NCBI RefSeq assembly: GCF_009730915.1
Contig: NC_052474.1
Span: 841,501-905,500 of the forward strand
Source: Dioscorea cayenensis subsp. rotundata
Lineage: Eukaryota; Streptophyta; Magnoliopsida; Dioscoreales; Dioscoreaceae
DNA: 64,000 bases
Reading direction: 5' to 3'
Made by a program: the position numbers and the translations under genes. The notes under the pieces were generated by a model. It was given only the letters and a program-made list of their open reading frames with translations. It was not told the origin of the DNA and made no database searches. Below, piece after piece: positions 1,227 to 60,690 of the stretch; the stretch's first letter is position 1; each line of letters begins with the position of its first letter.

Positions 1227-1300
1227 GGGAAAATTACTGTTCACCCCTCGTAATTTTCAAAACTTCCCAAAAACCCCCTCCTACTTTTGCACACCCCGGA
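1227..1300 (+). repeat. Left terminal inverted repeat of the MULE (imperfect)
   Basis: It begins GGGAAAATTACT and contains an A-flanked CCC...AAAAACCCCCTCC block. The same layout is found, reverse-complemented and diverged, at the other end. The inner boundary is approximate. Confidence 0.6.
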
Positions 1301-2040
1301 CAGCCCTTCCATTAGTGTTTAACTTCCCTTTTACCCCCTACCGCTCACTTCAAATGGGTCCATGTTGTGAAATCCCATTTTTAGCCCTCGAAAATGGTGG
1401 GAAAGAAAAAGCCCTAAATCACATCATGTTCAACCTTTTGAAGGACTTTCTAGCTTGGTTTAACGTTTAAATATTTTTACTAATATGTTTAATAATTGTC
1501 ATATCCGTGTAATACTTCCCATCTCCGCTTAACGTTATCTTTACATGTATAACTATTCATATTAACGTGTAAATTCTCAAAAGTCTCGCAGAAACGGCGA
1601 TTTTTCGCTTGATCCGAATCGTGGCAGTGGCACATGGCGGTGGCAGAGTTATGGTATCCCGTGCATAAGAATTAATGACGGCATTAAAAATTTATGCACG
1701 GTAACATAATTTTCCCGAACACCCGCTCGCTTCATCACCAATCGCTGCTACGATGCGTTTAACTTTTTTTCTCGGATATGAAGAGTCGCGATGCTTGTGG
1801 AATTCACACCATAAATAACCGTAAAGAACCCTCCCCATGGACAACCACCTCGCTCGTCCCTCATCATCCTCCTCCTCCTCCTCGTCCTCCTCTTCCCATG
1901 GACAACCACTCTATTTGAAAGGATGTTTCGTGAACCTTCTTCCTTATCTTGAGAATCGTTTAGCCGCAATCACGCATACAAGTTAAACTATCTTTTTCGC
2001 TAGTCGAAATGCTCTCATAATCGCCTCGAATCGCGGAGGA

Positions 2041-2460
2041 TTCTTCGACAGTGGATGACGGGCAAGCAATTAAGCGAGCATTTCGACTTGGGTAAGAAAA
2101 GAAATTTTTCACGATTTCGTGATTCAGGAGGATTCTCTGAGGAGGAGATCGAGAAACATCCTTTAAAGACGGGGTTGATATTTATCACTTGAGACTTTCT
2201 CGTACCATTTAAAAAAACATTACGTCAGTGTACAACTATTACGCTTTTTGTGTTTAACTATCGGGATCTTCGTTTAAGTCCCACCATAACACATTGATTA
2301 ATAGTCGCTTTTCATGAATGTGTGTTGTTTAACCTTTTTAATGTTGTACGTCATGTGCGGGTTCAAGTTGATGCGCATGTTATGCAAATCACGTGAGCAT
2401 TCGAATGTCATAAACACTTGTTTTCAGTTATACTGAGGGTCGAGTCGTGAGTGTCCAAAG
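2041..2460 (+). pseudogene. Duplicated fragment of the MULE transposase (intron plus exon edge)
   Basis: The block around 2353-2385 repeats the transposase exon start near 5216-5245 almost exactly (shared GGTTCAAGTTGATGCGCATG). The sequence just upstream, 2205-2345, has the same GTTTAA-type spaced motifs as the intron at 5056-5204. This looks like a displaced second copy of an internal part of the transposase gene, now far from its frame. It has no open frame of useful length. Confidence 0.5.
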
Positions 2461-2504
2461 TCCGAAGCGAGACGTTGTAAATGTTGTAAATGTTGTAAAA
2501 TCTT

Positions 2505-2925
2505 TTATAAATAAAAACGAAAACAAGCTTTATTTCGATCGTGAACTTCGAAATTTAAACATAGACCTAGTAAAAAACAAACAATGTGGGAAACAAAAAG
2601 AACGCTCATTGTAAACAATAGAAAATACGTAAATATGTTTAAACAAATGACAACGGTGTTTAAGAAAAAGTTACTCTTTAAACAATGACAACGTGTAAAC
2701 AATAGAAAAAGTTAAACACTACTCAAGTTACTCTTTAAACAATGACAACGGTGTTTTAAGAAAAATACGTAAAGATGTTTAAACAGTGACCCAGGAGGTA
2801 CCCATCTTCAACGCGATGTCAGTAAAAGCATTCAATTTAAACAATAACATATTATTTAAATGATATAGACTTTAGTTAAACAATTAACCATTTTTAAACA
2901 CTATATGTATCCTGCTTAAACATAA
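2505..2925. repeat. Irregular TTTAAAC-rich spacer before the transposase
   Basis: TTTAAACAATGACAACG-like words recur, including a local duplication (about 2670-2700 and about 2728-2755). No coding signal is present. It resembles the other motif-rich spacers of the element but is less evenly spaced. Confidence 0.5.
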
Positions 2926-3578
2926 AAAAAGCTTGACGCTTTACACGGAGACTCATGTTGAGTTGAGAACTTTCATTCGAACGATGACAATATGTCTTCC
3001 TCGCGACGATGACATATATTTCCCTTTTTGCCCTTGGGATGGAGGGAAAAAAATACCGCCCAATCACATCACGTCTAGTCTAACCTCTATGCATACAACT
3101 GCACTTTTTTTGTTTGCCTTTTCCGATCGCCTGCTTGTTCTTTACATCTTCTACTTCTTCTTCTTTGTCTTCTTTTTGTTCTTCATTTCATTTGGTTTGT
3201 ACGATTTGGTTTTCGACCGATATATTATGGAGAGTTTTTGTGGTATTGCTAGATTCAACGGGGAGGAAAGAGTGCTAATGTTCACGGCTCAGACTTCTTG
3301 GGAGTTGGTGTTAGCTGAGATATGTGAGCGATGGGGTCTCGAAGTTTCTCTTGTCAGGGTTAAGTTCATCACACCAGATGGATATAAAACGGTTTGCCCA
3401 ATCAAAAACGATGTTGACTTCCAGCGGATATGTCACGTCCATTCCATCTTCAAATGTGCTGTAGTTGATCTTGTCGTCGAGACATAAAATGTGCCATTGC
3501 CGAATCCTAATGAAAACGAGGTTTACTCGTTGTAAGTTCCTTTTCTTTTAATTATTCCAGTTGTCTGGGGTCATTATT

Positions 3579-3709
3579 GTTTAAATATGTCCAGTCATCT
3601 GGTTAACATATTATACTAGTCCTTTTACGTTATTAGTTAATTGCTTAAGTATTTAATTTAACGCTTTAACTATTGTCATTATCGCTAAACATTATACTCT
3701 CCGCTTAAC
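3579..3709 (+). repeat. Spaced TTAA-motif array in transposase intron 1
   Basis: GTTTAA, GTTAAC, TTTAAC, CTAAAC and CTTAAC words recur, mostly about 20-21 bases apart (for example 3581, 3602, 3637, 3657, 3684, 3704). The array fills the intron between the PB1-like and MuDR-like exons. Confidence 0.55.
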
Positions 3710-5055
3710 ATATTGATCTTTTCATTCTGATCGAAGTGTTGGCGGGAATTCGATTCTCGCGAGTGCTCCCATTCATCCCCATGGTGACCCTGGCGGTGTG
3801 GGATGTCTTCCTTCCTCGTCAGATCATTCTGAAGTGTTGTCGTTGGATATTGGACAACGTTTTGACGGTGTCGAACATTTCGTGGATGTACTTTCAAATC
3901 ATGCAATCAAAAGGAATTTTCGACTTCAAATTCATAAAGAACGAAAAACATCGGGCGATCGTGGAATGCGTCGATGGTTGTCGTTGCGCCTTCATGCATC
4001 AAAAAGAGTATAACAAAAAAATACTTTCGAATCAAGACAATCAACCCTGTCACACACTTGCGGTGGTGGCATAGGTTCAAGCGTCACATCCAAAAAGCGT
4101 CCCAAAAAAATGGGTTAGCGCACGAGTGATTCGTAAGCTCAAGCACCGTCCCCTCATGACAAGGCCATCGACATTCGGAAGGACATGTTATGGAACATGG
4201 TGTCCACATACCATACAAGCAGTGCTTGGTTGGGAAAAAGAGCATGCCCGGGTGGTCCTCGACCGCAGTGACATCTCCAGCTATGATCGCTTTGCTTTGG
4301 TATGTGGATAAGGTGGTCGAGACAAATCCCTAGCAGTATGCGATCGTGGAGAGAGACGGTGATCGTTTTAAACGTGCATTCTTTTCTTTCAGTGCGTGTA
4401 TTGTGGGATTTAAGAGGGCTTGCATGCCGTCATGCTTTCTCGATGGTACCCACCTCCTTGGAAAAATATCGGGGTACACTCATCGGGTGCTACGAGGGAA
4501 AGATGGTAACAATGGTTTTTTTCCACGTCGCCTTCGGTATAGTCGACAACGAGACCGATGCCAATTGGACTTGGTTCATATCTAAGTTAGGCGATGCCTT
4601 ATACGAGGGTGGAGATTATCATGAGATAATTACCTTCGTGTCGGACGAGTCCAAGGGCCTCGTGAGCGCAATTGCAGAGTCTTCCCTTCTTCGCCACATG
4701 CGTCATCGCCTTCGACATTTGGAGGCCAATTTTATGAAAGCCAATGTCGGACTTGGGAAGGCATTGAGGGAGGAGTGCTCGGTCATATGCTTCCGCATTG
4801 CGTGGGCATCCACGGCTAAAAGATTTCGATGATACCGTGAATGAACTGCAGCCATATCACCCAAGCTCATCACCGGTTGATTAATAAATCGGATATGACA
4901 CATTGGTCGAATTATCTCGCTCGGAGGTGATCGTTGGGGTGAGATGTATTCGAACGTCGCGGAGTCGCTCAATGCTTGGATCAAGGAAGCTCGCTCATTT
5001 ACCGGTGACTGAAAATGGTCGACTCCATAAGGTCTCGCGAATGTTGGTTTTACAC

Positions 5056-5204
5056 TTAACATTTAGTATTACCCTTTAAACATTCTCAATCTTTGTTTAA
5101 TTACACTTGTCTCGACTTTTAAATATTAATCATTTCGTTTAAATAATTACAATAATGTTTAAACATGTTGACGAATTATTTAACCATCATCGCCTTTTGT
5201 TTAA
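5056..5204 (+). repeat. Phased TTAA-motif array in transposase intron (period 20-22 bp)
   Basis: TTAA cores start at 5056, 5076, 5097, 5119, 5139, 5159, 5180 and 5201: eight in a row with spacings of 20, 21, 22, 20, 20, 21 and 21. The bases around each core are variants of GTTTAAAC or CTTTAAC, while the spacer bases are unrelated. The array ends 12 bases before the CAG acceptor at 5215-5217. Confidence 0.75.
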
Positions 5205-5830
5205 CCTTATTTGCCAGGTTCAAGTTGATGCGCATGTTATGTAACCGGCGTGAGCAAGCGACCAAATGGGAGAGCTACTTATCCCCATACATACATTCGA
5301 AGTTAGAGATCATTGTTGAGGACAGCCGAAATCTTCGTGTTGGTCGTTGTGTCGATGATCGTTACGGAGTGATCGACCAATCGCAGCGAACTCGTGGATC
5401 TCGCCATCGAACTTGTTCGTCGTCGAAGGTGGCAAGTTTATGGTATCCCTTGCGAAACATGCTTGCGCAAACGAATAATGCGCATGACACCAACGTACAT
5501 CGATTTATTAGCGGGTACTTCACCGTCGACAATTACAAATCGGGCGTATAAGGAAGCTATATTCCCCATACCCGACGACGATGCAGCCTTCGGGGACGGA
5601 AATCGTGAGCTTCGCTTTCATCGACCGTCTGTGACTAGAAGGCACTGGGCGGCCTAGGGCGAAAAAGAGGATCGAGTCGCAGCGTTTGATGTCCGCGAGT
5701 TACATTGCGACTGCCGCCAGGATCCGGTCACAATCGACGATCTGCTGAATGAAACGTCAGCCGACTAGGCATTGTTAATAAACCGACGATGATGTGGAAA
5801 CATTGTGTATTGATGGGAACCTTTCCACAT

Positions 5831-6084
5831 TTAAACTCTTACTCTTTACAACGAATTGAATGTATTTACACGAAATGACATTGTTATTTTTAAACGGATC
5901 ATATCGTAATTTGAAATATTTCAACCGATGTTTAAACAATGAGTGCATTTATTTAAACAGAGACAGGTGTTATTTTTAAACGAGTACACCGTATTTTTGA
6001 AATATTTAAAACTGATGTTTAAACGATATATAGTATATTTAAACAATGAAAGTGAAATGTACACAATTACAACGTAAATTAAAC
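5831..6084 (-). repeat. Spaced TTAAAC array between the convergent MULE genes
   Basis: TTAAAC occurs at 5831, 5890, 5932, 5953, 5976, 6019, 6039 and 6079. Most gaps are 20-23 or about twice that, and degenerate words sit at some missing steps. The array lies between the transposase 3' end and the 3' end of the minus-strand gene. Confidence 0.6.
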
Positions 6085-7029
6085 AATGAAATAAAACCGA
6101 ATGGAATTTAACACGCTTTTACAATTCAAAAACAAACAAAAATTTACATTAAGATATACAAGTCATGTTCTTCGAACACGAAAACAATGAATTGAATTTG
6201 TCCATATTTACATTTGAAAACAAAATCGATGATCGATATACTGGGACATATTATTCAAAAACAAAAATTTAACCCGCTTGTGACGACCCCTTTGTCATGG
6301 ACGCCGTACCGCCTCCCTCCTTAAGTATCGCGGGTAACATACCGTAATCCGAGGTAAGGAACGTCCCGTCTGCGGTAGCCGTAACTTCTCACCCCACGTA
6401 ATTGCTCGATAAACCGCATGACGTAGACGGGCGTAATCGACGCTTCCTTGTTTTTGGCGTGGGGTTTTTACGTAGTGCGTGCACGAGCGGGTACTTTTGC
6501 TGTCGCCGACTCGCTTAACTCCATATCGACACAAAGGTCGAATAGATTCCACTGCCGAGATATGCAAGTCGAGATTAGAATACCGATTTAAATACCAAAA
6601 GCAGATATTAATCGGACATAATTAAAGAACTTACCATGTCCAACGCGTCCCTTATCGTACTCGGACACGAAGAATAATGCCTGTATTCTTGTTTATCATT
6701 GTCCGGGACGACGACATGGAAGTGGCCATTCATGATTATCGGGAGGATGACAATTTGAACTTCATGCGAGTTCGCGACAGATCCCCGATCATAGCCATAA
6801 TTGTGTCATGTGCGTCGTCCCCGCTTTGACATAAACAATAGCAAGCTGCTCGGTGATGGAGGCGCCTCTTGTAAGGATATTGCTCTTTGCTCGGCGACTT
6901 TTTGTATGATGCATCTGAAAAGCGTCCCATCACATCATCGATGACCATCTCCTTCCCCTCAGCAGCGTGTATAACTCGTCAGCGTGTAGTGCCGGCAGTC
7001 GTCATTCTTCCACCACGGCAGTCTCGAGG

Positions 7030-7200
7030 TTAAACGATAATGGATATAATAAGACCATATTGTAAATATTTAAATGATATTATCAATTGTTACATGATAT
7101 TATATATAATTAAACGATAAGTAGAAAAACTTAAATGATAACATAAAGGTATTAAACACTATTAGGAAATAGTTAAAACACTATAAGAAACCCTTTAAAC
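7030..7200 (-). repeat. Phased TTAAA(C/T) array in the Ulp1-like gene (period 20-22 bp)
   Basis: Motifs start at 7030, 7070, 7090, 7110, 7131, 7152, 7173 and 7195. Apart from one skipped step (7030 to 7070 is 40) the spacings are 20, 20, 21, 21, 21 and 22. Words are TTAAAC, TTAAAT, TTACAT and TTAAAA; intervening bases are unrelated. It sits in a non-coding, intron-like stretch. Confidence 0.75.
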
Positions 7201-8432
7201 AATAACATAAAAAGCGTTACACTTACCCGTCCCATAGAGCGATTGAGGAAGATCCTCATCAACTCCCTCGTCAGTATTTGTTAAAGACGACTTAGGCCAA
7301 CCCATTTCTTCTTCTTCGAATAAAAAGCTTTTCCGAGCCGTCCCGGTCCAATTTTTGATTGGCCTCGATCATCTCTCTCGTTGCTTTCGGTCGGGGTCTT
7401 CATCAAAGATCTTCCTTCGATCGCGGGGGACGATGGTGACAGCATCAACTGCAGACACATTCTTACATGGTTGTTCTTGTTGTGGGATTGTGTATGGCTT
7501 GGTCATGCAGATCGTCGGCCACGGCCACGCAGAACGGATTCGACGATCTTCTCAACCGTGGCCATGACAACAGAGATCATTGGGAGACACACCCTTTAAC
7601 TTGTTCTTGATCTTCGTGGATTGTGTCCATCTTTGATGCCATATCTCGGCAAACTGGGTTCCACCGGGTCGACGATTTCATCGAGAAGAGAGTCAACGAC
7701 CTTCTCAACCGCAAAGAACGGCCACATCATCTACGATGTCCTCCACCGTCATGTCCATATCATCAACGGCGATGACTCGAATGACGATCGACCACCGATG
7801 GTGTTGCTATTGTTTCATCGTCACCGACGGTGGAGACGAGGCGATTGTTCTCCTCTTTTTCGCAAGTCTCTTCGAATGTGGCCGCTTTGGAAAACGACCT
7901 TCCCGATGATGTCGTCGTCGTCAAATTCCGACGCCTCGTTCGTCCCGGGTGCTTAAGTTCTTTCGAGGGATGGCGTAGTCGGTTGTGAACGTCCTTCCAG
8001 CGCCTCCACACGAGCGACAAGACGAGGAAACTCGGTCATCAATATCCGCACGCTCGCGATAAGAGTTGCGGTGACATCTTCGCCCTAATGTCACCGGTAG
8101 GGGCTGCCACGGTCGGAGGGCCGCCATGGCCGGGGGACCCTGTCGTTGTCGTGGTAGGGGGGGTTGTTGCAATCTGCCGGGGTAGGGGAGGGCTTCTCCG
8201 TGCCGAGGAATGCGTGCGTGCGTGGTGGGGTCGGGAAGTAGGAGAACAGGGCGTCCAGCAGCAGACGATGAGGTCGCCTCTCATCTTCGCCTTCGAGCAA
8301 GTGGTTCCGGGAGCAATGGCATTCATCCGCTCGGTTGGCCCCAACAAATATTTCTTCTTCAAACGATTCGACGGAACCATTTCGTGAAACTAACATATGT
8401 AAACCAAACAATTTCAATGAGATCATTCATTT

Positions 8433-8603
8433 TTAAACTATAAAAAAACTATATTTAAACAGAGTGTTTATATATTTAAACGTTATAGAATATAATTAAA
8501 CGGAGAACAAAAATATTTAAACCGGTATGAATAATAGTTAAACGGTAAATACTAAAGTTAAACGCTAAATAAAATGTTTAAACATTAAAGACTTATGTTA
8601 AAC
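8433..8603 (-). repeat. Phased TTAAAC array, nine copies (period 20-22 bp)
   Basis: Exact TTAAAC words start at 8433, 8455, 8476, 8496, 8517, 8538, 8558, 8578 and 8598, with spacings of 22, 21, 20, 21, 21, 20, 20 and 20. On the minus strand, the sense of the Ulp1-like gene, the word is GTTTAA. The intervening 14-16 bases share no obvious sequence, so this is not a simple minisatellite. It is the cleanest of the arrays. Confidence 0.85.
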
Positions 8604-9504
8604 ATTGTCCATGATTTATTACATCTTTTCCATCGAGCGATGACAAGCTGGTTTCTACCGTCGCTTGCTTCGGTAGTACTTTCACCGTAGCACGACGATC
8701 CTTGGGATCTTGCCGAAACGGACTTTCTTCCCCGCTCGAGTCACTCAGTAAAACCGGGACGTTAAGCGCGACCGAGCAACCCTTAATGTACCTCGTGTTG
8801 GTCTTCTTCCCGCAGCATCTATCTTGCACTCGGGCGGCCGCTGTGGAATATCCTCCATAAGCCACTTGTGCGTCGCTCGCGCCCTACGCGTGATCGCCCC
8901 CATGGGTCGATAGATCATCGACGTAATCAACGATCCGACTCGAACCGAGCATGATGTATTTGGGAAGAGGACTCGTCCCCCATGAGGTACACCATCAGGA
9001 GTTTGACAAAAATTATCTTCTTCTCCCCTCTGTCGAACAAGTTGCACCAGAGTGCTCTTGATGGAGTCTCCGTGCTCTCGTAGGGTCTCTGATAGATACC
9101 GCCTTCGACGGCGACCGGTTTTTCTTCTTCCGAAAGACCACTGCGCCGCCATCGCAACGCGAGACCAAGAACGAGGGCCACATCTTGAGGTCCCGAAAAC
9201 TCGGCAGGCTTTCCCGATCCTCGAATTTATTGATGCGACCATCGTACCTTTGCAAAAGAGAATCAAGAAGGGCCTCTCTTGGTATATGGCTTCCGACTCA
9301 GATGAAGCCGCAAACGGTGTCCTTCGAATAATCTCCCGAGTGTCGAGGGGTCATGTTAACTTTCAATTCGACTAAGGTCTCCACAACCGGTGTCAAATAG
9401 CAACGCCCATTAACTAGGTTGACCGCCATAATCACAAGCCTGCGACAATAACAACACATTCAACATGCAGTATTGACAAAAGTTTAAGCGGAAATATAAG
9501 GTTT

Positions 9505-9636
9505 TTAAACGGTAAACTCTCGCTTATTAAACAGAGATATAAAATGTTAAACAGAGACCCATCTTGTTAAACGAGACGAGAATACTTAAACAGGGGACAA
9601 CAAATGTTAAACTCAGTAACATCTCATTTCTTAAAC
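9505..9636 (-). repeat. Phased TTAAAC array, seven copies
   Basis: TTAAAC starts at 9505, 9527, 9547, 9567, 9586, 9607 and 9631, with spacings of 22, 20, 20, 19, 21 and 24. It lies upstream of the minus-strand Ulp1-like relic, so this array is probably leader or first intron. Confidence 0.75.
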
Positions 9637-9669
9637 GTCAACCCTCATTTTGTAAAACCGCAACCATAT

Positions 9670-10299
9670 CAAACGAAACGGAAATGTACATTATAAATAT
9701 TACATAAATCATAACAATCGAAAAAAACTATTTCGATAGTGTATACATACGAAAATGCAAAACAAAAAACAAAAACCCTACTGAGAAATCTCCCCTGCAG
9801 ACTAACAAAACCCCAGAGAAATCCCCCTGCAGACTTCAATATCTTCCAACAAAAAAACAGGGAGCACAAAACAAAAACCGAAAAAAATCTTTCTTTGAAT
9901 GTAGCAGCTTAACATAAAACCATACTCAATACCTTAGATTGCAATCGATGAAATGCCAACTAGTTGCATGGGGGACTTCTCCTTCGAGATACCGGGTGGA
10001 AAGGGAAAAGTCGATGAAATGCCAATTACAGAGGCTTCACGGTGAGAGACAACTTCGGAGACGACTCGAAATGGAAAAAGTCAAGACGTGAGTTGAGAAA
10101 AAAGCAATTAAACTGGCTCCAATAAATTGCCTCTGGGGTTACCCTACGGAAAAACCGCCCACTTCCTCTCAAATCGCCGAGATGGTCTGCAGCCCACGAC
10201 TCCCCATGCAAGGGCATTTTTCGTCCAAAAAAATTTGAAACTCACTCCGCTCACATCCGTTCTGAGGGGTTTGGGGGTTTGAAAAAAACATAGACTTTT
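9670..10299. other. Right subterminal region of the MULE; no gene seen
   Basis: The stretch is non-coding, with a short local repeat of the form CCCTGCAGACT near 9795 and 9827. Short open frames here have no family resemblance. Confidence 0.4.
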
Positions 10300-10386
10300 A
10301 AAAGGAGGGGTTTTTGGGGATTGCAAAACTAACGGGGTGTTTTTGGCAATTTTACAAACTTAAAGGGTTTTTTTGGCAATTTCCAC
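10300..10386 (-). repeat. Right terminal inverted repeat of the MULE (imperfect)
   Basis: Read on the minus strand it starts GTGGAAATTGCCAAAAA and contains CCCCAAAAACCCCTCC, matching the left end in order and spacing with substitutions and small indels. Confidence 0.6.
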
Positions 10387-10395
10387 ATTTTTTTA
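10387..10395. repeat. Right copy of 9-bp target-site duplication
   Basis: ATTTTTTTA directly follows the right terminal repeat and matches 1218-1226 exactly. Confidence 0.7.
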
Positions 10396-10864: not shown

Positions 10865-13800
10865 TCACAATCCGACGCATTTTGCCCATCTAAAGAAACA
10901 ACTGATCTGTTTGGGCAATAAGTAAGGTTCAAGAGAAGCTGGATCCAAGTCTGGGCTTCTCGGATTCGACCATATGTACACCCCTCGTTCTTGTTTGGTA
11001 CCTGGAACTGTATTATCGAGCACAAAGGCTACAAGAAGAGCCACCACCATATTGAGTGACAGAAGTCCATTCAATGCATAGTTGAGCTGCATCAAAATTG
11101 TGCAATCAGTTTAAAAACAAGACCTAGGAAAAGCGGAAAAGCATGCAATAGATATAGTTCGTACTCCTGCATTTCCAATATGGATAGGACCATCTGATGC
11201 TGCGGCATATGGTATGAAATAACTGGGCAGAATGAGGCTGGTATTAGGTTGATACTGCTGGAAAAATGCCGGGATGGATAGAGAGATGAACATTGTAAAT
11301 CCAACAATGATTATATTTCTGGAACTTGCTGTCTGAGTGTATTGCATTGTTGATAGGCCGAGAGCCACAATCAAACCCCAAGTGAAGCACAGAACAGCAG
11401 CAGCCAAGGCGAGCGGGATAGATGCAAGAAGTGCACCCACTTTTCCTGTGACATGCGGACACGCAAATTTAGAGCAACTGCCTCAAGCACATTAGATTGC
11501 ACACATTGCCATGAACACTAAGAAGCTCCAAGAGAAGAATTTATTCATTACCAACAAATGAGATGAAGATCAAGAATGCAGCTCCAGCTACCAAGGCTTT
11601 TCTGCTACCCATCTTTGTAACCTCTAGGGTATGCATATTCTCTGTTAGTGTTGTTGAACCAATGCCTGTTCCCCACAGTCCAGCTAGAATGCTTGAAATT
11701 CCTTCCAAACCAATTCCCCTGCTCACTACCCCAGGAGTTGGGGGCCTTAAGTTTACTAGTAAGGATGAAGCATGATAAGTACCAACCTGGATAAATGTCA
11801 ACAATGAAACCAACAAAAGACTTGATTAAAATCTTCAACGATATTGGAGGCGACCTTAAGCAAAAGCATCAAAAATAATAGTGTGTCTTGCATTGTTTCA
11901 CCAAAAGCATACACAAGGCTTGTGAGCATAAACAAAAGAGAAGTGAAAACTTATTTCTTACATTATCTGTCAAAAAATAGAATTATAAATAAGCCAATGA
12001 CGCGAACAACTACTAAAGTTTTGCCAAGACAGAAAAATCACCGGGCCTTAATATTTGCAAATAAAGTTTTTTTTTTTTTTCTATAATTTTTTTTTTCTTT
12101 TTGTCAGATTGTCAAACATTAACTGCTACTATTTGTCACCTACAAATCAAAGTGAACACAGGACCAAGATATATACAGAAAACCATCAACCATAAGTGTA
12201 AGGTCTACTGAATAAACAAGCATCTTTCTTTTCAGTCACTTGAATAGGAATGAATCTTCCAATACATAAATCTACAAAACTAGCAAGTCTTTACACTATC
12301 GGCAACTCACGATCTGCTTGAGAATAAAAGCACAGGTCATTATCTAACTACAAACAAAAAGTAGCAAATGATCAATAAGTTGATGATAATTCAAAAAGAA
12401 GCCTTCGGAGATGCACATTTTTTTAGGATTTCCAAATAAGGTATTATCCTATATTACTGATATTCAAAACAGCACTCAGAAAAATAAAATACTTTCCTAA
12501 CCAGTAGAAAGACTACAGAAATAATTGCATCTTTTTTGATTTATAGACACATGATATTCTGTAGCCAATTTAGGAGCAATGTACAGATAAAAATACAAAG
12601 TCAGGGATGACACATCTTGCAATCATTTAATAGTGCCATAACTAACAGTATATATATATACTCACTGAGTCAACTGATGCCACAATTGATGCAATGATCA
12701 TTAAAATAGATGTCTTGAAATGGAAACTTGGGGCACCCCATTGGAATGGATAGGGAACCCTAACCCAAGCAGCAGTTCTCCAAGCATTGGATGCATCAGT
12801 TCGACAATGCCTCATGGTATCCACATGTCTCTTGCATGAATCCAGTAAGATATTTGAGTTAGGTATGTTTGAGTTACATCCCTTATAATTATAAGCCCCT
12901 CCTGTAGTCAAAAAGAAAGCATATGCCCACACTATTGCAACACTGAGAGGAACCTGAGACAGTAAAGATGGAAGAAGGGTAATGAGAGCACAAAATCCAT
13001 CTAGCCTCCGAAAGAGAATGTACATGAGGCCCAAGAGGACATTGGTTACAGTTGTTGGATGCTAACAAAGTCCACTTCAGCAAAACAAGAGATAGGAAAT
13101 CAAATTACCGCATAAACTAGGAAGATGTGATGCCCAAAGATAGAAATTCTTCTGAGATACTGCAATCAAGGAAAAGGGCAAACTGTAAAGATGAAGAAGT
13201 TTCTGGAAGCCAATAAGCATTGATATACAAAAGAGCATATCAAATGGGAGAAACATTCTAAACAGCATCAGAGTCTTTTTGATGAGGAAAATTCATTTTT
13301 AGCCTTAAACTAGAAGTTATCAAGAGCTGCGGAGTTGTATACCAGAGTGAAAATTAGAACCAATATAATAAGCGGGACACTAATTTCAGCACAGGTGCCA
13401 GCTTGAGGGAAACCATAGCTGAAAAATGCCAAACCTACAGCAGCAACAGTTGGAGCAACAACCACTGGATTTATTAACCTGCAATGTGCATGCAAAACCT
13501 TGAAATTATTCATGGATTACTCTACAAACAGACAAGACACAGCATTTAGAACATTAATTAAGAAACCTAGAATCAGCCATGTAAAATATGTCTATAATAA
13601 GTGCAAAAGGCACTACTACTAGCCCCTGTTTCAATAGTTTTAGATAAACCACATACACTATCACATTTCTAACCCAATTCATAGGAGCTCTATACTATTG
13701 AAATTGTTTCCATAGTAATCTGGTGTATCACAGAAAAGATAAATGAACAAATTGTCCATAGTAAAGGGAGGGAACACTATATCCAATAGATATGAGAATT

Positions 13801-16038
13801 CAATGAACAACACATAGGGGGAAAACATGGAGTTTAGGGATTCAAAGATCAGTATATTAAAAGTCAAATCAGGCGGAAAAAGGGAATCGCGCTAAATGAC
13901 ATTCTACAGCTTTCGTGTGTGCTAAAAACTTAACTCATCACATGTGTGCTTCTATTCCGTTTCTTTGTGATACAAATCTTTTAACAAATAAACTGAGACA
14001 AAGGAAAAAAAATTACAAAATGACTGCCTATTGGTTCAAATTTTATCTTGTAAGGTGCTTTTGCCTCATGAATAAATTTGAAGGCTTGATTAGTTTTCAT
14101 TCTACTAGCAAGTTGTATAGGCTATGTTTTGAGACACAAATATGAGAACAGTGAAGCGATCAGTAGAAGCTCAAAGAAAGTCAGATGGAGCACATATTAG
14201 AAAGGAAAAAACTTAATCAAAATAATCGAGATTTTGTACCTCAAGAAAAGGGCCATAAGGCCACTGTATCCCAAAATTGTCTGAAAAACTGAACCAATAA
14301 TGATAGCCCCTTGTAGTTCCCTCATTATATGCCTAAATTTCTGCATTCAAATAAAATGATATTTTCAACAACCCATCAATTACAAAAACTCTCAATTTCT
14401 AAGAATCATTATCCCAAAGTGCAAACTTACATTTTCACTGAGATTTCGAAACTCTTCAGAGTTAATGACAACCAATGCTGGAGCCAAATATACAAATGAG
14501 CTTCCTTGGACCAATGGAAGCCTAGTACCTAGAAATGAATGCATTATAGTTGTAACACCAGATACCAAAAGCATGGTGGAAATGACATTAGCAGTCTCCT
14601 CCTGTCATATATAAAAACCAGTAACGCTAAATTTTGTTATGTTTAGCTCAAACAGTGAGATATTAGTAAAAAACAATCCTTACATCAGTTCCACCCATGG
14701 CTGGTACCATAATTAAAGGAATGAATACAAGTGAACCCGCCAATGACAAGTAGTGTTGGACACCATATGGAATAAGGCTGGCTGCAATTAGAACAGACAC
14801 AATAAGACCCGGAACAATATCGGTTCCCTGTTTCATAAGTAAATCAGCTTTTCTACTTTGACAAATTCTAAAAGATACCAACAGTCTTACACGAAGTCAC
14901 ACTGAGAATTATTAGAAAGACCACCTATTCTACAAGAACCAACGCTGAAAAATATTGAGTGGAACATCAAAACACTTCGCCAAGATCAGGGGTATACAAT
15001 GAAACCTTAAGTTTTCTTTCCTAGGTGCATTATTGTTTTACTTATTGAAAAGAAAACATGAACTAGATACAATCTTTATGATGGCAAATGAACTCATCCA
15101 CGAAGTCAAACAGAACCACACTCAACACTAGCTTAATTATAGTGATTCTTTGAACCTGGCAAGTTAATTCCATAACAATGTAAATAACCCACTAACAAGT
15201 ACAAGGCATTTCTATCAAAGGCAAAAAATTTCAAATAGTTGTGCAGTAGCAGCATGATAAAGGTTCGAATTTTAAAGTACCATCTAACTTGAACATGGAA
15301 TTGGATGTTACTAAAACAAAAGCAAGATGATGAAGTGAACTAACCATAACCCGGTTTATCTGTTAGTCTAGACTTAAGCCTTGGTGATCTATTCAATGGT
15401 GGATTCTCCAGCTCGGGAGACTCAGAAAACATATCAATCTCCACTTCACCGTCAAATTTCTGGGCATCCTTCTTCTTCGACTCCTCATCACCAGACGCTA
15501 CTGGCGCTATCGCCGCAACACCCACATTAGCATTCCTATTCCTATTCCTATTCCCGTTCGCATTCACATTCGCATTCACCTCCTCTGGCTTTCTCTCTTC
15601 CTTGATACCCACCCCAGTCTCAACTCCAACCCTTCTCTTATCCTTCTCATCAGCTCTCAACCCCCCATTCCCAGAGCCAATCTCGATCCCCTTACTCTCC
15701 ACCCCAATATTCCTCCTCCGGCCCAGCATGGGTTCAATCTCCACCTTCGGCGGAGACCGAGCTCTCCGGCGCTCAATCCCCTCCTCCAAATCCACCTCGT
15801 CAGCAGGCCGCTCCATCTCAACCTCACCAACGGTACTGACAACGGTCTCTCCAGAGAAATTAGGGTTAAACCCAGTGCGCTTAGCCCAGGACTTGAGGTC
15901 TCTGGGGTTATGATCATTGTTGTGAACGAATGGCTCGATCCTCGGCGGCCACGGCCCTGGCCTCGGCCGGGCCTTCGTCTCCTCCGGGATCTTGGAGCTG
16001 GAACCAGGATCCATAGAGGAGATCGAACTACCACTCAA
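10865..16038 (-). CDS. NAT12: Nucleobase-ascorbate transporter, NAT11/NAT12-like, complete
   Basis: Ten exons on the minus strand join in frame to about 758 codons: 16038-15345, 14781-14684, 14601-14431, 14340-14240, 13478-13343, 13159-13109, 12953-12666, 11786-11552, 11445-11165 and 11086-10865 (TGA). The family (NCS2/UraA) moves purines, uracil or related bases across membranes with protons; substrates of the NAT11/12 branch are not well defined. Exon 1 encodes the ~230-residue hydrophilic N-terminal extension typical of this branch (PGPWPP and SWAKRTGF motifs). After it come the QHYLSLAGS motif of the first membrane helix, GTRLPLVQGSSFVYLAPAL, INPVVVAPTVAAVGLAFF, and the GxxxxTLTEN signature loop, with about 12 membrane segments in all. 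A second in-frame ATG at 16014 could also start translation. No break was found. Close relatives are near 700 residues, so this one is slightly long because of an Asn/Arg-rich low-complexity run in exon 1. Confidence 0.9.
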
Positions 16039-16988
16039 CCAGAGAGAAAAGAAGGAGAAGGAGAAGGCTATAGAGACGAAGATGAAGCGGCGGTGAAAGC
16101 GAATCGTGGAAGCGAAGGAAGTGAAGATGATAAGAAGCCACTCACGCAGTGTGCCATGGCATGGTAGAGAGCTGGTCGCTTTCTTTTCTGGTGTTTGTTG
16201 GACTTTTTAATTGTTTAATTAATTATTTTACCGTTGGTGGGACACGTCATTTAGTGCTGGGATTTGAAATTTGGGTGCTAAATTTGGATTATAATTAGTA
16301 ATTCTTATGAGTAATGAGTGGTTTTTGGATATTAATTAATTATTTTCTGTGATTTTATAATTGGAGTTTTGTTTTTAATTGAGATTTGTTGGATTTTAAT
16401 TTTTGGTTGAGTTTTTTTCTTTGGCTGTGATGATTGTGATGAGAAATGTTTGATGTGAAGTTTTAATTTCGGATTGGATTTGGTTTGTTTATTTAATTAA
16501 ATACATGTGATTTTATATTTAATATAATGATCAAATTTTAGTAAGATGAGAAACATTTAATTTTATAAATAATCTTTATTTATTCAGGTATTTTATTTAT
16601 GAACATTCTATGTCAAAATTTGGATAGTTAAAATTTTACCATACGTGTGAGATGTTTTGGTGACTTTGTCAAAAAAAAAACCTCAATAAATACAAGGACC
16701 AAATAGTTATGGGGAACATATATATTTATTTATTTTAATTTTTAAAAAATTAGATAAATTATATAAATTATTATTTTTTAATATAGAAAATGATGAAGGT
16801 AAGTGGGAAATTTTTCAATAACTCCACAAAAAAATAGATGGTCTACAAAAATAATAAAAGACAAAAGTTTGTAAGAAAATATATGGGGCATTGAATTACT
16901 CCATAACAGTTTTTTCCTTTGATGTAAAAACCTAATTGAATTCTTTATAGATGCTAAGGTAAAAATGAAATTTTACCGTTAAATATGT
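16039..16988. other. Divergent intergenic region: NAT-like leader and AT-rich spacer
   Basis: The first ~150 bases are a GC-richer leader upstream of the transporter ATG. The remainder is AT-rich with no open frame of note. Confidence 0.4.
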
Positions 16989-18345
16989 AATAGCAAAAAA
17001 TTTTTTAACATTATTTATATGAAGTTCCAAATCAAACATATTAATAAAAGAGACAATCGGAATCTAGTATTTTTATCGACGCTACATTAATAAAATTCTG
17101 TGTATATTTATAATAAATTCAAGACTTAAAACTCAACAAAGAAATACAAATTTAATTATTCATATGAGTAATTGAATATGTTTTCAAATCACCATCACCA
17201 CCTATCAAACAAACAACCAACAAATGATATTTTTTAACATTTTACCCTTAAAGGCATAAGTGCTATTTTCAACTTATTACATATAATTCTCATATTTAAA
17301 AAGAAAAAATATTTTTTTATAATAAAAATCTGGCTGTTAAGACGTCATAATTATTGTTTTTATTTGTTATTTTTTAACTTTCCAAATTTAATAATATTAT
17401 GATAATACTATATTTTCCCAAAATCCAAATACCCACATATATAATGGCAAAATGAATTTAAATATTATTTATATGAAACACCAAATCAAACGAACGAACT
17501 GATTAAAAACACATGATAAAAGAAAAAACTATAAATAAGTTTTCTCATAGAGACACAATAACATTAATGAAATTCCTTTATCATGTATATTTTAGATAAA
17601 TTCAAGTCTTCACATTCAATAAATAAATATAAAATCTAATCATTCACATAAGTAATTGAATAATCAACCAACAAATAATATTTTTAAACATTTTACAATA
17701 GTACTATTTTCAGTATGTCACATATAATTCCTATTTTTAAAACATATTAATTTTTATTTTTAAAAAATCCAACAGTTAAGAGGTCATAATTGTTTTTTTT
17801 TTAATCTTTTATTTTGTCCACTTTCCAAATTTAAATAGGATCATGTTAATAATATATTTTTTCAAATACCTACTTAATACTATCTTTTCCCAAAATCCAA
17901 ATACCCGCTTACATAATGGCAAAATAAATTTAAATATTATTTATATGAAACACCTAATCGAACTGATTAAAAGCACATAATAAAAGAAACAACTAGAAAT
18001 AAGTATTCTCATAGAGTCACAATAACATTAATGAAATTCCTTTAGCATGTATATTTTAGATAAATTCAAGTCTTCAAATTCAATAAATAAATATAAAATC
18101 TAATCATTCACATAAGTAATTGAATAACCAACCAACAAATAATATTTTTAAACATTTTACAATAGTACTATTTTCAGTATGTCGCATATAATTCCTATTT
18201 TTAAAAACATATTAATTTTTATTTTTAAAAAATCCGACAGTTAAGAGGTCATAATTGTTTTCTTTTTTTAATCTTTTATTTTTTCACTTTCCAAAATTAA
18301 ATAGGATCATGTTAATAATATATTTTTTCAAATACCTACTTAATT
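16989..18345. repeat. Three tandem copies of a ~455-472 bp AT-rich unit
   Basis: The word AATGGCAAAAT (AATAGCAAAAA in the oldest copy) followed by TATTTATATGAA starts units at 16989, 17443 and 17915, giving periods of 454 and 472. Units 2 and 3 are nearly identical over long runs, including TGAAATTCCTTTA, TAGATAAATTCAAGTCTTC and the TTACAATAGTACTATTTTCAG block. Unit 1 keeps the same order of landmarks but is clearly diverged. The array ends about 50 bp upstream of the UTP10 TATA box, so at least the last unit is in promoter range. Confidence 0.8.
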
Positions 18346-18392
18346 AAGGACCGTTATGTAATTAGTAATTACCGTTTACTAGCTAAACTACC

Positions 18393-18400
18393 TATAAATA
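18393..18400 (+). promoter_or_regulatory. TATA box of the UTP10 gene
   Basis: TATAAATA lies 134 bp before the start codon, at a suitable distance for a leader of about 100 bases. Confidence 0.6.
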
Positions 18401-18448
18401 AAGATCAGCGGTAACGAAAAGCGAAACCAAAATCTCTCACTCCCTCAT

Positions 18449-18462
18449 AAACCCTAAACCCT
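18449..18462 (+). promoter_or_regulatory. Telo-box in the UTP10 leader
   Basis: The telomere-like repeat AAACCCTAAACCCT lies between the TATA box and the ATG. Telo-boxes near transcription starts are a known mark of plant ribosomal-protein and ribosome-biogenesis genes, which suits a U3 processome gene. Confidence 0.65.
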
Positions 18463-18533
18463 GTGCCTCGCTGCCGAGCGGCAACGGCGACGGGTTTCGT
18501 CTTCATCGTTCGATCCCTCTCCAAACCCTAGCA

Positions 18534-21500
18534 ATGGCGACCGCCCTTGCTTCTCAAATCCGGGAGATCAAAGCGGTCCTTAGAGGCAGAGAAGACCCTC
18601 TCCGTAGACCCATCACTCGCCCCTCTATCATCTTCGATCCCAAAGAAGCTGCCGATATCGACCTCCGAACTATCCTCTCCTTAGCTCTTTCGGGTAATCT
18701 ACTCTCTCTCTTTATCTCTCTGCGACATTGATTGTTCTTCTTGTGCTGTTGTTTGTGTTCTTTAATCGATTTTTTCGTTGGATTCAAGGTTTGGATGTTC
18801 TTAACGAATTGGATAGTAGATTCGGGAAGTATAGGAATACGCTTTTTAGTCACACGAGCCTTGAAGTAGATCGTGAAAAGATGGTTCCCAAAGAGGAGGA
18901 GAAGCTCAATATTTCTATCCGTTCTTATCTTCGTCTGCTTTCTGGGCACTTGCAAACCCCTGCGGCCCTGAAGACTCTTGAATACCTTATACGACGATAC
19001 AAGTATAGTATTTGTGTTTTCTTTCAGTTCATGGTTTTTGATTCTTGGTTTTTTTAAGTCTTGAAAAACTTTGATGTGATTTTCATTTGTTTCTGTTTAT
19101 CAATTTTGTGGTGCAGAGTTCATGTCTTGGATGTAGATGAACTAATTCTATGTGCACTGCCTTATCATGATACCCATGCTTTTGTTCGGATTGTTCAATT
19201 ACTTGAATTGGGGTGAGATTTTGGTTCTTGCTGGGTGCTCGTCCTTCTATTTTATTTTTCATTTTTTTGGTTTCGATAATGGTATTCAACCTTGATGCCT
19301 TGCTGGTGGTGGTAATTTTTTGTTGTTGTTATTTTTTTTTAAAATTTTATTTATACATTTCAATGCAGAAACTCAAAGTGGATTTTTCTGGAGGGGATCA
19401 AGACATCGGGGGCACCTGCTCCGAGGAAAGTTATAGTGCAGCAGAGCATTCGTGATAAAGGCATTTTGGAGACAATATGCAATTACGTATGTACCCACTT
19501 CTATATGATTGGCAGTCTGATGCTATATGGAGGTTTTAGTAATTAATCCTGCTTTTTTTAACAGGCATCACCTACTAAGGAGTTCCAGCATTCAAGACCA
19601 GTGATTTGCTTTTGCACTGCAGTCATTGTAGAGGCTTTAGGTGGCATTCCTAGGCTTGACACTGATACAGTGAAAAGGGTTTTAAATTTTGTGTTTGATG
19701 GGCTTAACCCTGACATGAGGGGTAGCCAGGATCACAAGGTTTGTTCTGTAGGTTCACACAGTGCTAATTATCCAATTTCTGCTTTTAAAATTAAAATTAC
19801 TACATGAAGTAGTTCTAGTAGCCATAATATGATACTTTGTGGTGTCATACTGTTTATTTCATATTATTTTAGTTGCGCTGTTCCTCTTGTTGAATTGATG
19901 GTCAACAAAAGGTATAGGATCTTTTCTTTTCCCTCCTCCAATGGAGCCTCTTGTCCAATGTTTGTGGCTTTATAAAATACAATCAAATTATCATGTTTGA
20001 AAGTGTCAAATACTAAAATGTTCAGTTGGCAGGCTGGTGCACTGATGGTTGTGGGTTTATTGGCGACTAGAGCAACGCTAGCCCCTAAGCTTGCTCAAAA
20101 TTTAATCCTCTTTGTTGCAAGAGTAGCTCAACAAGACTCAAAGCAGTCACCAGATCTATCTTGGCTACGAGTGGTGGTTATGGCCATGGTTAGCCTTGTT
20201 CAGGTAAGATACTCTCTAGAGTCTTTCATGTCATTTTTGCTTGTGGCAAGCTCATTTCCAGTAAAGGAAACATGCTTGTATGCCATTTTTGGACCATATG
20301 ACAAAATTGCAAGGGTAAATATACTTCCACTGTATGCAAATGCTCAATAATTGTCAGGAAAAACTTCAATACATTGTTCAGGACTTCTCTAAAAAAATAG
20401 CCTGTTTTTTATGTGAAGATTTGGTATCTATATTGTTACCTAAGAATTCAAACTTTTATAAATTTGCATCTATTTTCCATCAGTTTTAATGTTATTGTCT
20501 CAGCAAGTTTCTGCTTAAGATGCTTGTTGTGGATGCGCTTGCTTAATCTAACATCTTATTTAGCTGCATGCTTCATTGCCTGCGAATGGTTATGTTTGGT
20601 AAGGAGGCTCTTTTATTCTCCTCTTGCATGCCTACCTTTCTGTAACTAACAAATACTGTCCTCTGAATGCTTACTCAACTCTTGATCTTCCCCATGCATC
20701 AACCAGCCAAATACTAAGTGTTGCTGATGTGAGGTACTGCACGCTTAATTATTTCCCAGTTTCATTTTAAGCGAGCTTGACTCTTATCCCCAGGCACAAT
20801 CAACTCAAATGTTCCCGAAGAAGACAATTATGATTTTAAGGGATATCAGGTATTTCACATGAACTTATGCTAACCATTTTAATGGGAGTTCATTTTGGGA
20901 AATCTCTTTTGTAATGTCCTTGGTTTCCCGCATCTGCACTCATGATGGTTCTTTTACTCTTTTCAAGGGATTTTGCTGCAATACTTTCTGGATTGTTGCT
21001 TGACTTCAAGATTCAGAAGTTTTTGTGTCTCTACCTAGAAGCCTTGGTCGATTACAGGTTTATAATTTTGTTTCGTTTAGCTTTCTTCTTCTTTAATGTA
21101 TAAAAACTTATTGATCTTCTTGACTCAGTACGTCAGATGATTCTTGTCGTCTTACACTAGTTGAAACTATGGAAAGTCTTCCTCTGAAGGATTTTGTTGA
21201 AAGGATTGTGTTTAAGGTGCTTGGATTTTGCATCAAGTTATCTCGGCAAGTGGACAGCTCTAAACTACATGATGCAGGTGGTTTTAATTTGATATATTTG
21301 TAGTTGCTGCCTATATATATATATATATATATTGTCATTTCCTTTCACTACCCACTGTTTAGCTGTGCCATTCTCATAGTAGTTTATTCCTTTTCTCTTC
21401 TTTTTGGGTATTTTGTTTTCATGCCACTTGTTGTTCTCTGTCTCTTATTTTATTTATACACTATTTTCCTTATTTTTCATAGGTATTTGGGGGAAGCAGA

Positions 21501-31435: not shown

Positions 31436-32435
31436 NNNNNNNNNNNNNNNNNNNNNNNNNNNNNNNNNNNNNNNNNNNNNNNNNNNNNNNNNNNNNNNNN
31501 NNNNNNNNNNNNNNNNNNNNNNNNNNNNNNNNNNNNNNNNNNNNNNNNNNNNNNNNNNNNNNNNNNNNNNNNNNNNNNNNNNNNNNNNNNNNNNNNNNNN
31601 NNNNNNNNNNNNNNNNNNNNNNNNNNNNNNNNNNNNNNNNNNNNNNNNNNNNNNNNNNNNNNNNNNNNNNNNNNNNNNNNNNNNNNNNNNNNNNNNNNNN
31701 NNNNNNNNNNNNNNNNNNNNNNNNNNNNNNNNNNNNNNNNNNNNNNNNNNNNNNNNNNNNNNNNNNNNNNNNNNNNNNNNNNNNNNNNNNNNNNNNNNNN
31801 NNNNNNNNNNNNNNNNNNNNNNNNNNNNNNNNNNNNNNNNNNNNNNNNNNNNNNNNNNNNNNNNNNNNNNNNNNNNNNNNNNNNNNNNNNNNNNNNNNNN
31901 NNNNNNNNNNNNNNNNNNNNNNNNNNNNNNNNNNNNNNNNNNNNNNNNNNNNNNNNNNNNNNNNNNNNNNNNNNNNNNNNNNNNNNNNNNNNNNNNNNNN
32001 NNNNNNNNNNNNNNNNNNNNNNNNNNNNNNNNNNNNNNNNNNNNNNNNNNNNNNNNNNNNNNNNNNNNNNNNNNNNNNNNNNNNNNNNNNNNNNNNNNNN
32101 NNNNNNNNNNNNNNNNNNNNNNNNNNNNNNNNNNNNNNNNNNNNNNNNNNNNNNNNNNNNNNNNNNNNNNNNNNNNNNNNNNNNNNNNNNNNNNNNNNNN
32201 NNNNNNNNNNNNNNNNNNNNNNNNNNNNNNNNNNNNNNNNNNNNNNNNNNNNNNNNNNNNNNNNNNNNNNNNNNNNNNNNNNNNNNNNNNNNNNNNNNNN
32301 NNNNNNNNNNNNNNNNNNNNNNNNNNNNNNNNNNNNNNNNNNNNNNNNNNNNNNNNNNNNNNNNNNNNNNNNNNNNNNNNNNNNNNNNNNNNNNNNNNNN
32401 NNNNNNNNNNNNNNNNNNNNNNNNNNNNNNNNNNN
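31436..32435. other. Assembly gap, exactly 1000 Ns
   Basis: A run of 1000 unknown bases. The round number indicates a placeholder of unknown true size. It should hold the second half of UTP10 and the last exons of MSH4. Confidence 0.97.
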
Positions 32436-60400: not shown

Positions 60401-60690
60401 CTGGTTAGATAAACTTAATGTAGCAGCAGCAGAAATGACACCAGGTGCTTAATATCAAAAGAACTATTACTGCTAGAAGTTGTTGGCTCAAGAACAAGTT
60501 GGAAAGTACCTCTTCATACCTTTTTTGTTTGTGTGTGTTCACATTTTGGTTGTTATGAGTATTGGTGATTTGCTTAGGAGCATCCAAATTATCATTTGTA
60601 TAAATGGTTGCCCCATGTTTTTGTAATGTTGAGCTTACTAAATATACTGGTTGATTTGAAAATAAAATAAAAATAAAAATAAAAATCTGT
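57420..60690 (+). mobile_element. L1-type LINE, 5'-truncated and inactive
   Basis: It opens inside the endonuclease C-terminus (SDH motif at 57441-57449). Reverse-transcriptase blocks follow in order: KSPGPDGFNSYFF near 58117, DYRPISCCNVMYKII near 58290, QSAFIPGRAISDNI near 58400, DLQKVYDSVSWDFL near 58505, GLRQGDPISPLLF near 58678 and FADDL near 58816. A zinc-binding RT-associated domain (FWFDPWCNG near 59590; CVFCYSVEEQIEHLFFGC near 60010) ends at the stop at 60412. An A-rich (AAAAT)n tail at about 60658-60688 marks the 3' end. Frame breaks near 58335, 58610 and 58920-59375 kill the protein, and most of the endonuclease and ORF1 are absent. I could not find a convincing target-site duplication. 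Confidence 0.9.
57674..60412 (+). pseudogene. LINE reverse transcriptase reading frame, frameshifted
   Basis: The polymerase is split over at least four pieces: 57674-58345, about 58350-58610, 58603-58920 and 59375-60412. The catalytic motif-A Asp (DLQKVYDS) and the motif-C FADDL aspartates remain readable, so decay is by indels, not by loss of the core. The last piece carries the C-terminal zinc-knuckle-like region found in plant L1 elements. Confidence 0.85.

Follow-up and report, generated by a model that had tools for sequence, protein, structure and literature searches.

Two-turn ladders of a TTAAAC-type core in the noncoding DNA of a decayed Mutator-like element: putative target arrays of a VANC-type protein

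The VANDAL MULEs carry short motifs that are present in one orientation and at high density in introns, intergenic DNA and terminal noncoding DNA (Hosaka et al. 2017, PMC5735166). VANC, an anti-silencing protein that the element itself encodes, binds the motif arrays; DUF1985 is present in VANC proteins, and the tandem repeats of VANDAL elements were displayed in dot plots of 10-bp exact matches (PMC5735166). The word 'periodic' does not occur in the main text of that paper, and in the parts of the literature consulted we found no description of a two-turn step for the published VANC motifs, which are reported to diverge. A related group, the KI-MULEs, is non-TIR with a ULP gene opposite mudrA, while some Vandals carry VANC together with Ulp1, and the ULP genes of MULEs are found in both orientations (PMC2528002, PMC13317346).

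Within the window (the whole stretch of DNA analysed, 64,000 nucleotides), a Mutator-like element of 9,160 bp was delimited at 1227-10386 from flanking repeats, end comparison and transposase domains. The element is flanked on each side by an exact copy of the 9-bp target-site duplication ATTTTTTTA (left copy at 1218-1226, right copy at 10387-10395), the length usual in MULEs. Clear terminal inverted repeats were absent, the ends having by eye only a short degenerate stretch in common, and none of the eight inverted pairs (seed 11, length at least 16) connected the two ends; VANDAL and other non-TIR MULEs also have no long terminal inverted repeats. A search of viral contigs with the transposase ORF gave no relative. 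In the rest of the window beyond the element we observed a single 34-bp match (82%, E.01) and no cluster of cores.

The element contains a decayed MuDR-type transposase gene (3226-5770, plus strand; bounds by eye), recognised by its Pfam domains. The MULE domain (PF10551) was found in the unstitched ORF 4302-4832 (E 3.2e-5). In the stitched read we observed PF10551 (E 6.1e-6, 27.0 bits against a curated cut-off of 27.6), DBD_Tnp_Mut (E 8.8e-5, 22.5 bits against 25) and PB1 (E.0036, 17.6 bits against 23.6); each is below its own cut-off, yet all three are in the expected order.

A decayed second gene lies opposite to the transposase (6270-9440, minus strand; bounds by eye), as in the KAONASHI-MULEs and the KIU-bearing Vandals, which are likewise non-TIR (PMC2528002, PMC13317346). 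This orientation is not diagnostic, since ULP genes in MULEs run both ways. When the pieces of this gene were joined by eye, the best Pfam family was DUF1985 (E 7.1e-5, 23.2 bits, under the curated cut-off of 35.1), with the DUF1985-like N-terminal part read at 9429-8707, and the next was PMD (1e-3). Neither family appeared in any of the seven wrong-frame stitches or the three single-frame reads, one of which weakly matched an unrelated family (Arm_APC_u3, E 0.055). Full-frame reads in all three frames gave no Pfam family, the single read searched against NCBIfam gave nothing, and the automatic frame path scored -4.0, within the range of 200 shuffles (-14.9 +/- 6.0, maximum 2.8). The 3' part of the gene looks Ulp1-like, but the Ulp1 domain known from the KIU-bearing Vandals could not be confirmed in it: the stitched, badly decayed 3' read had no Pfam match, and its best PDB match (E 1.4) was unrelated. 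The DUF1985 match weakly suggests that the second gene may have made a DUF1985 protein.

The noncoding DNA of the element carries TTAA-centred cores in nine arrays, A1 to A9. One of them is A8 (8425-8615, plus strand), within a presumed intron of the second gene, where the preliminary description had reported nine exact TTAAAC; we recovered all nine at 8433-8598 with the same spacings (22, 21, 20, 21, 21, 20, 20, 20; step 20.6-20.8, p=.001) and an extra TTAA at 8585 within the run. The eight TTAA cores reported for A5 (5045-5215, minus strand; inferred transposase intron) were likewise recovered at 5056-5201, with an extra TTAA at 5126 (8 rungs, step 20.7, p=.0065). For two further ladders the pattern stood and the single skipped step claimed for each did not: A7 (7025-7215, plus strand; another inferred intron of the second gene; step 20.6, p=.0005) skips two steps in its ladder at 7030-7200 (7030, 7070, 7110), and A9 (9480-9640, plus strand; 5' of the first exon that was recognised in the second gene; step 20.7, p=.0005) skips none at 9505-9631 (22, 20, 20, 19, 21, 24). 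An acceptor-like TCGCAG is present beside A9, at about 9440. A3 (2540-2940, plus strand), which lies upstream of the transposase gene and has a step of about 19.9 (p=.0095), was absent from the earlier list.

The four arrays previously described as weaker fared unevenly. A6 (5825-6100, plus strand), between the 3' ends of both genes, has borderline phasing (p=.056). A1 (1440-1600, minus strand; p=.72), A2 (2200-2345, minus strand; p=.29) and A4 (3560-3720, minus strand; inferred transposase intron, one exact core; p=.68) are not significantly phased on TTAA alone, yet they are dense in motifs by a matrix trained on A6-A9 (43, 27 and 37 per kb on both strands, where the remainder of the element has 1.4 and the flank 3.7); in A1 all three non-palindromic cores read GTTTAA on the plus strand. 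A2 precedes a 40-bp piece that shares 87.5% identity with the transposase exon at 5217. For the phasing p values of the nine arrays all TTAA were counted, with 2000 random placements for each array. A step of 20.6-20.9 bp fits the four main arrays and the borderline fifth; the step fits cover four of the nine arrays, and their chains omit the TTAA at 5126 and 8585.

Phasing across the whole element was evaluated against 200 shuffles in 300-nt blocks. We observed 42 TTAA pairs 19-23 bp apart against 3.1 in the shuffles (maximum 9) and 35 pairs 40-44 bp apart against 3.1 (maximum 9), and in the same test TTAAAC on the plus strand gave 43 against 5.3. Three TTAAAC in step occurred 12 times, every time inside the element, against 0.01 expected, and the downstream flank showed no excess. 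The phasing proposed earlier withstood the shuffled control, and chance was rejected on the shuffle counts, the in-step triples and the spectrum of helix turns.

This spectrum also bears on the proposal that the motifs all face the same side of the DNA, which proved incomplete. Even turns (2, 4, 6, 8) gave 39, 31, 23 and 13 TTAA pairs over the whole element, and odd turns (1, 3, 5, 7) gave 3, 7, 6 and 7 (counted in 4-bp bins, with a 3-bp bin at 8 turns). The prevalence of even over odd turns indicates a two-turn ladder, beyond same-face phasing, and pure same-face phasing was rejected since odd-turn spacings are little used. The same scarcity is not expected from same-face phasing alone, and it counts against a device that acts through chromatin or DNA shape, be it curvature, nucleosome placement or a bound host protein with a preference for AT-rich DNA. 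The two-turn step and the AT-rich rungs would suit such a device, as would A8, which was more curved than 90% of its own shuffles; however, A5, A6 and A9 were straighter than 99, 97 and 93% of theirs and A7 was average (wedge model, 100 shuffles each, five of the nine arrays). On this model, and for these five arrays, the intrinsic curvature put forward earlier was rejected as the source of the ladders, and we regard a device of this type as very improbable.

The ladders are non-random, biased to noncoding DNA and mostly of one orientation per array. Non-palindromic cores agreed with the majority orientation of their own array in 43 of 46 cases (p=.001), and of the 96 matches that the matrix has on the two strands of the element, 91 fell outside the coding intervals, which were drawn with the arrays known. 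The earlier claim that the coding remnants lack the pattern stands as a noncoding bias; 2 of the 42 in-step pairs have both members in presumed coding sequence. A dense short motif in one orientation in noncoding DNA is what characterises VANC arrays. The placement could also suggest an RNA-level code for splicing or intron recognition, as the cores are mostly GTTTAA on the gene sense strand in the inferred introns (A4, A5, A7 and A8) and in A9. T is abundant in plant introns anyway, it is not obvious what a two-turn DNA step would mean at the RNA level, and A3 lies upstream of the transposase with its cores mostly (8/9) antisense to it; we consider an intron code hardly credible. Internal sites for the transposase itself, or for a host factor that it uses, are quite improbable: the element does encode a MuDR-type transposase, and A1 and A9 lie towards its ends, but most arrays are in introns and between genes, and in the outermost 200 bp at the two ends the matrix has a single match (1319). 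The terminal regions are where MULE transposases bind.

The arrays resemble minisatellites in their head-to-tail units of about 20-21 bp and in a higher-order tandem duplication of 86 bp in A6 (5882-6050). They differ in that several share little beyond the core, and the same core with a like step recurs at separate places. Within the duplication the core is conserved: 0 of 18 core columns differ against 29 of 69 other columns (p=2e-4). Spacer likeness was evaluated in six of the nine arrays, in chains that omit the TTAA at 5126, 8585, 6006, 2660, 2756, 2884 and 9484. At offsets 9-17 the spacers were alike in A3 (0 of 500 shuffles as alike), A7 (p=.008) and A5 (p=.05), and no more alike than shuffled letters in A8 (p.14), A9 (p.25) and A6 (p.11); at offsets 11-17, A8 was near-significant (p=.056). 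An old minisatellite without function, built of a 20-21-bp unit and dispersed to several introns, whose core survived by chance, would account for the residual likeness in A3, A7, A5 and nearly A8, for rungs that fall on multiples of one unit and not on odd turns, and for a duplication of about four units. However, the spacers of A8, A9 and A6 resemble shuffled letters at offsets 9-17 despite exact cores, and neutral decay should strike core and spacer alike, so the pattern in the duplication counts against such a relic, which we judge unlikely. Of the meanings offered earlier, phased, putative binding sites and a tandem repeat with selection on the core alone both remain tenable and are compatible with each other; the preliminary interpretation as a whole is partly supported.

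Its statement that no MULE feature of this kind had been described was wrong in kind, as VANC target arrays are known in VANDAL MULEs (PMC5735166). Like the VANC arrays of Arabidopsis VANDAL21 and VANDAL6 described there, the present arrays have a dense short motif in the same orientation in the noncoding DNA of a MULE, are linked to tandem duplication, and belong to an element whose second gene may code for a DUF1985 protein (a weak match here). Unlike the VANC21 and VANC6 targets given there (YAGTATTAY or AGTTGTCC/AC), the core here is TTAAAC-R; identity with either motif was rejected, since YAGTATTAY and AGTTGT[C/A]C each match once in the element and are not enriched. The near-constant 20.7-bp step and the largely unrelated spacers of several arrays also differ from VANDAL21 and VANDAL6. 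The comparison suggests that the ladders are a VANC-array-like feature of a described kind, with a different motif and a two-turn step for which we found no description.

We conclude, as judged from sequence, that the arrays probably act in cis as target sites for a VANC-type anti-silencing protein that is encoded by the transposon and binds DNA sequence-specifically. In such a VANDAL/KAONASHI-like Mutator element, the second gene would supply a DUF1985 protein, presumably the binder of the TTAAAC-type cores, and its copies would sit on these cores, about one per two helix turns, across introns and spacers. Once bound, the protein would protect the element from DNA methylation. The two-turn step may correspond to neighbouring protein units packed side by side, and the arrays may have grown by tandem duplication, after which selection retained core and step. 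As the genes of the present copy are broken, it would now have to rely on protein supplied by intact relatives, should there be any.

Base composition was examined as a proxy for methylation history. The CpG o/e was 1.29 in the element against 0.40 downstream, and 1.66 in the arrays (1.32 with the motif masked); the TpG o/e was 0.99 against 1.25 downstream. In the left flank, too, CpG was not depleted (0.89 over the first kilobase, and 1.0-1.4 in the 250-bp windows adjoining the element), nor was it at 18-19 kb (1.22). The absence of CpG depletion in the element is as would be expected of long escape from methylation, of which it would be a sequence-only sign; a young insertion or the composition of the family could also be its source.

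More tentatively, a VANC-like protein may polymerise on DNA at a fixed two-turn repeat, the specificity for the transposon being read from a lattice, made up of the core and the 20.7-bp step in several arrays, and not from single sites. If this is true, the length of the step would add to the motif a second code for specificity, which could explain how such systems overlook stray motifs in the host genome. The finding bears on how anti-silencing proteins are directed to their own transposon alone. A six-base core with a fixed two-turn step and largely free spacers gives a concrete, testable rule (motif density plus step), the lag spectrum alone offers a way to seek such systems in plants, and the ladder would be a simple DNA design for targeted hypomethylation.

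We observed that the word TTAAAC was concentrated in the decayed Mutator-like element (MULE) at 1227-10386, with 63 copies on both strands (6.9 per kb; palindromic sites count twice) as against 29 downstream, where known bases total 52.6 kb (0.55 per kb). Read along the motif strand, the core was (T)TTAAAC; the next base was A or G in 52 of 58 exact array cores, with weak preferences beyond it. Of direction, 43 of the 46 non-palindromic cores matched the majority direction of their own array (p=.001). Judged by eye from splice-like borders, arrays A4 (3560-3720) and A5 (5045-5215) lie in introns of the transposase gene (3226..5770, forward), A7 (7025-7215) and A8 (8425-8615) in introns of the second gene (6270..9440, reverse), and A9 (9480-9640) immediately 5' of the first recognised exon of the latter. 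A3 (2540-2940) is upstream of the transposase, and A6 (5825-6100) is between the 3' ends of the two genes.

The phased TTAA/TTAAAC arrays of the preliminary description were present as it gave them. TTAA pairs 19-23 bp apart numbered 42 in the element, compared to 3.1 +/- 1.9 (max 9) in 200 shuffles preserving dinucleotides within 300-nt blocks; another 35 pairs lay 40-44 bp apart (3.1 in the same shuffles). The 53.6 kb downstream had no surplus of in-step pairs. In the sum over all nine arrays, TTAA positions reached their highest power, 35.5, at 20.6 bp, with harmonics at 10.3 and 6.9 (threshold 23.3, the 99.9 percentile of 1000 random placements, periods under 30). Hand-picked chains in A5, A7, A8 and A9 fitted steps of 20.6-20.7 (residual SD 0.5-1.3 bp), and A3 had a step of 19.9; part of the jitter could be single-base indels. 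Among the arrays earlier called weaker, A1 (1440-1600), A2 (2200-2345) and A4 were motif-dense but not significantly phased, and A6 was borderline.

Motifs had also been proposed to face one side of the helix. TTAA pairs at 2, 4, 6 and 8 turns numbered 39, 31, 23 and 13, and those at 1, 3, 5 and 7 turns 3, 7, 6 and 7. Since even-turn pairs far exceed odd-turn pairs, the motifs form a ladder whose rungs stand two turns apart; the even turns are used as proposed, while odd turns are little used. Such a ladder is expected from a duplicated unit and equally from a protein lattice of that footprint, and the data fit both.

In an 86-bp duplication (5882-6050), 0 of 18 columns were changed in the three TTAAAC cores and 29 of 69 in the remainder (p=2e-4; with TTTAAAC, 0/21 vs 29/66, p=4e-5), and in a weaker test, on stretches of A2 and A5, the share of identical columns was 31 of 41 for cores and 59 of 119 elsewhere, although the aligner can bias both alignments toward cores. 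A2 and A5 each precede the same transposase exon piece (37/45 columns identical). Transposase-exon-like pieces recur upstream in a different order (2360-2399 resembles 5217-5256; 1639-1664 resembles 5428-5453), and a rearranged or second transposase remnant may make up the element's 5' part. Between units, spacer likeness at offsets 9-17 (six arrays) was at background in A6, A8 and A9 and raised in A3, A5 and A7, with A8 near significance at offsets 11-17 (p=.056); directly after the core (offsets 6-10) it was raised in A3, A6, A7 and A8. We read these results as arrays that probably grew through tandem duplication and were then under selection for the core.

The element has exact 9-bp TSDs without clear TIRs. 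Short repeats like TTTTTGGCAATTT were seen by eye at its right end (10298-10386), part of which the left end echoes in complement. The transposase domains (MULE, DBD_Tnp_Mut and PB1) were all under their respective curated cut-offs. The second gene runs opposite to the transposase, and numerous small shifts interrupt its reading frame; those at 8707-9429 (reverse strand), with few stops, reflect either indel-rich decay or assembly error. A stitched N-terminal read matched DUF1985 (E 7.1e-5) and PMD (1e-3), the only Pfam families listed (E up to 10; filters remove most weak matches). Neither appeared in 7 of 7 wrong-frame stitches or in single-frame controls, one for each of three frames (one gave Arm_APC_u3, E 0.055). 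Full-frame reads of the whole gene in three frames had no Pfam match, and no credible match was found for its 3' part, Ulp1-like by eye. As frames were picked by eye, the DUF1985 significance is weaker than its E implies, and correcting in the worst case by 3^6, for the six joins within the matched region, would bring it to about 0.05. The top family among 24,736 was one known from VANC, the anti-silencing protein of Arabidopsis VANDAL MULEs, which argues that the match is real.

DUF1985 is present in VANC proteins, and VANC6 targets bear AGTTGTCC/AC (Hosaka et al. 2017, PMC5735166). The kind of array seen here, of which the preliminary description knew no MULE example, is known from VANC targets. 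RdDM and VANC have opposite effects at common noncoding targets (Sasaki et al. 2023, PMC10398659), and some Vandals have VANC together with a Ulp1 domain, with strong conservation in eudicots (PMC13317346). KI-MULEs, non-TIR elements with ULP opposite mudrA (PMC2528002), likewise lack TIRs and have a second gene opposite the transposase. In the main-text passages of VANC/VANDAL/MULE literature that were searched, we found no description of a fixed two-turn step; 'periodic' and 'TTAA' do not occur in the main text of PMC5735166, nor 'spacing' in that of PMC10398659. Sasaki et al. 2022 on eudicots may already describe relatives.

Elsewhere in the window, Pfam matches were Xan_ur_permease (12642-13034, reverse), HAD hydrolase (50097-50459, reverse), zf-RVT (59375-60412, forward) and AP2 (62994-63728, reverse). 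The stretch 15001-19000 had CpG o/e of 0.68-1.22 and GC of 0.21-0.46, and its ORFs at 15340-16038 and 18554-18955 (both reverse) had no Pfam match. Exactly 1000 N at 31436-32435 mark an assembly gap, and long ORFs spanning it are artefacts.

A lineage long free of methylation is expected to have undepleted CpG, and this prediction was checked. CpG o/e was 1.29 in the element vs 0.40 downstream, where 70 overlapping 9.16-kb windows had a mean of 0.37 and a maximum of 0.56; TpG was 0.99 vs 1.25. Within the element, CpG o/e was 1.23 in coding sequence, 1.66 in the arrays (1.32 with the motif masked) and 1.07 in other noncoding sequence. It drops to 0.24 at the right end of the element, and was 0.33 at 58.8-60.8 kb, which holds the zf-RVT match. 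The left flank was not depleted (0.89 in the first kilobase; 1.0-1.4 in 250-bp windows adjoining the element), nor was there depletion at 18-19 kb (1.22) or in the AP2 gene (1.04). A young insertion would give the same CpG picture. The undepleted CpG is thus not proof, and we consider it supportive, in that it agrees with a long escape of the element from methylation.
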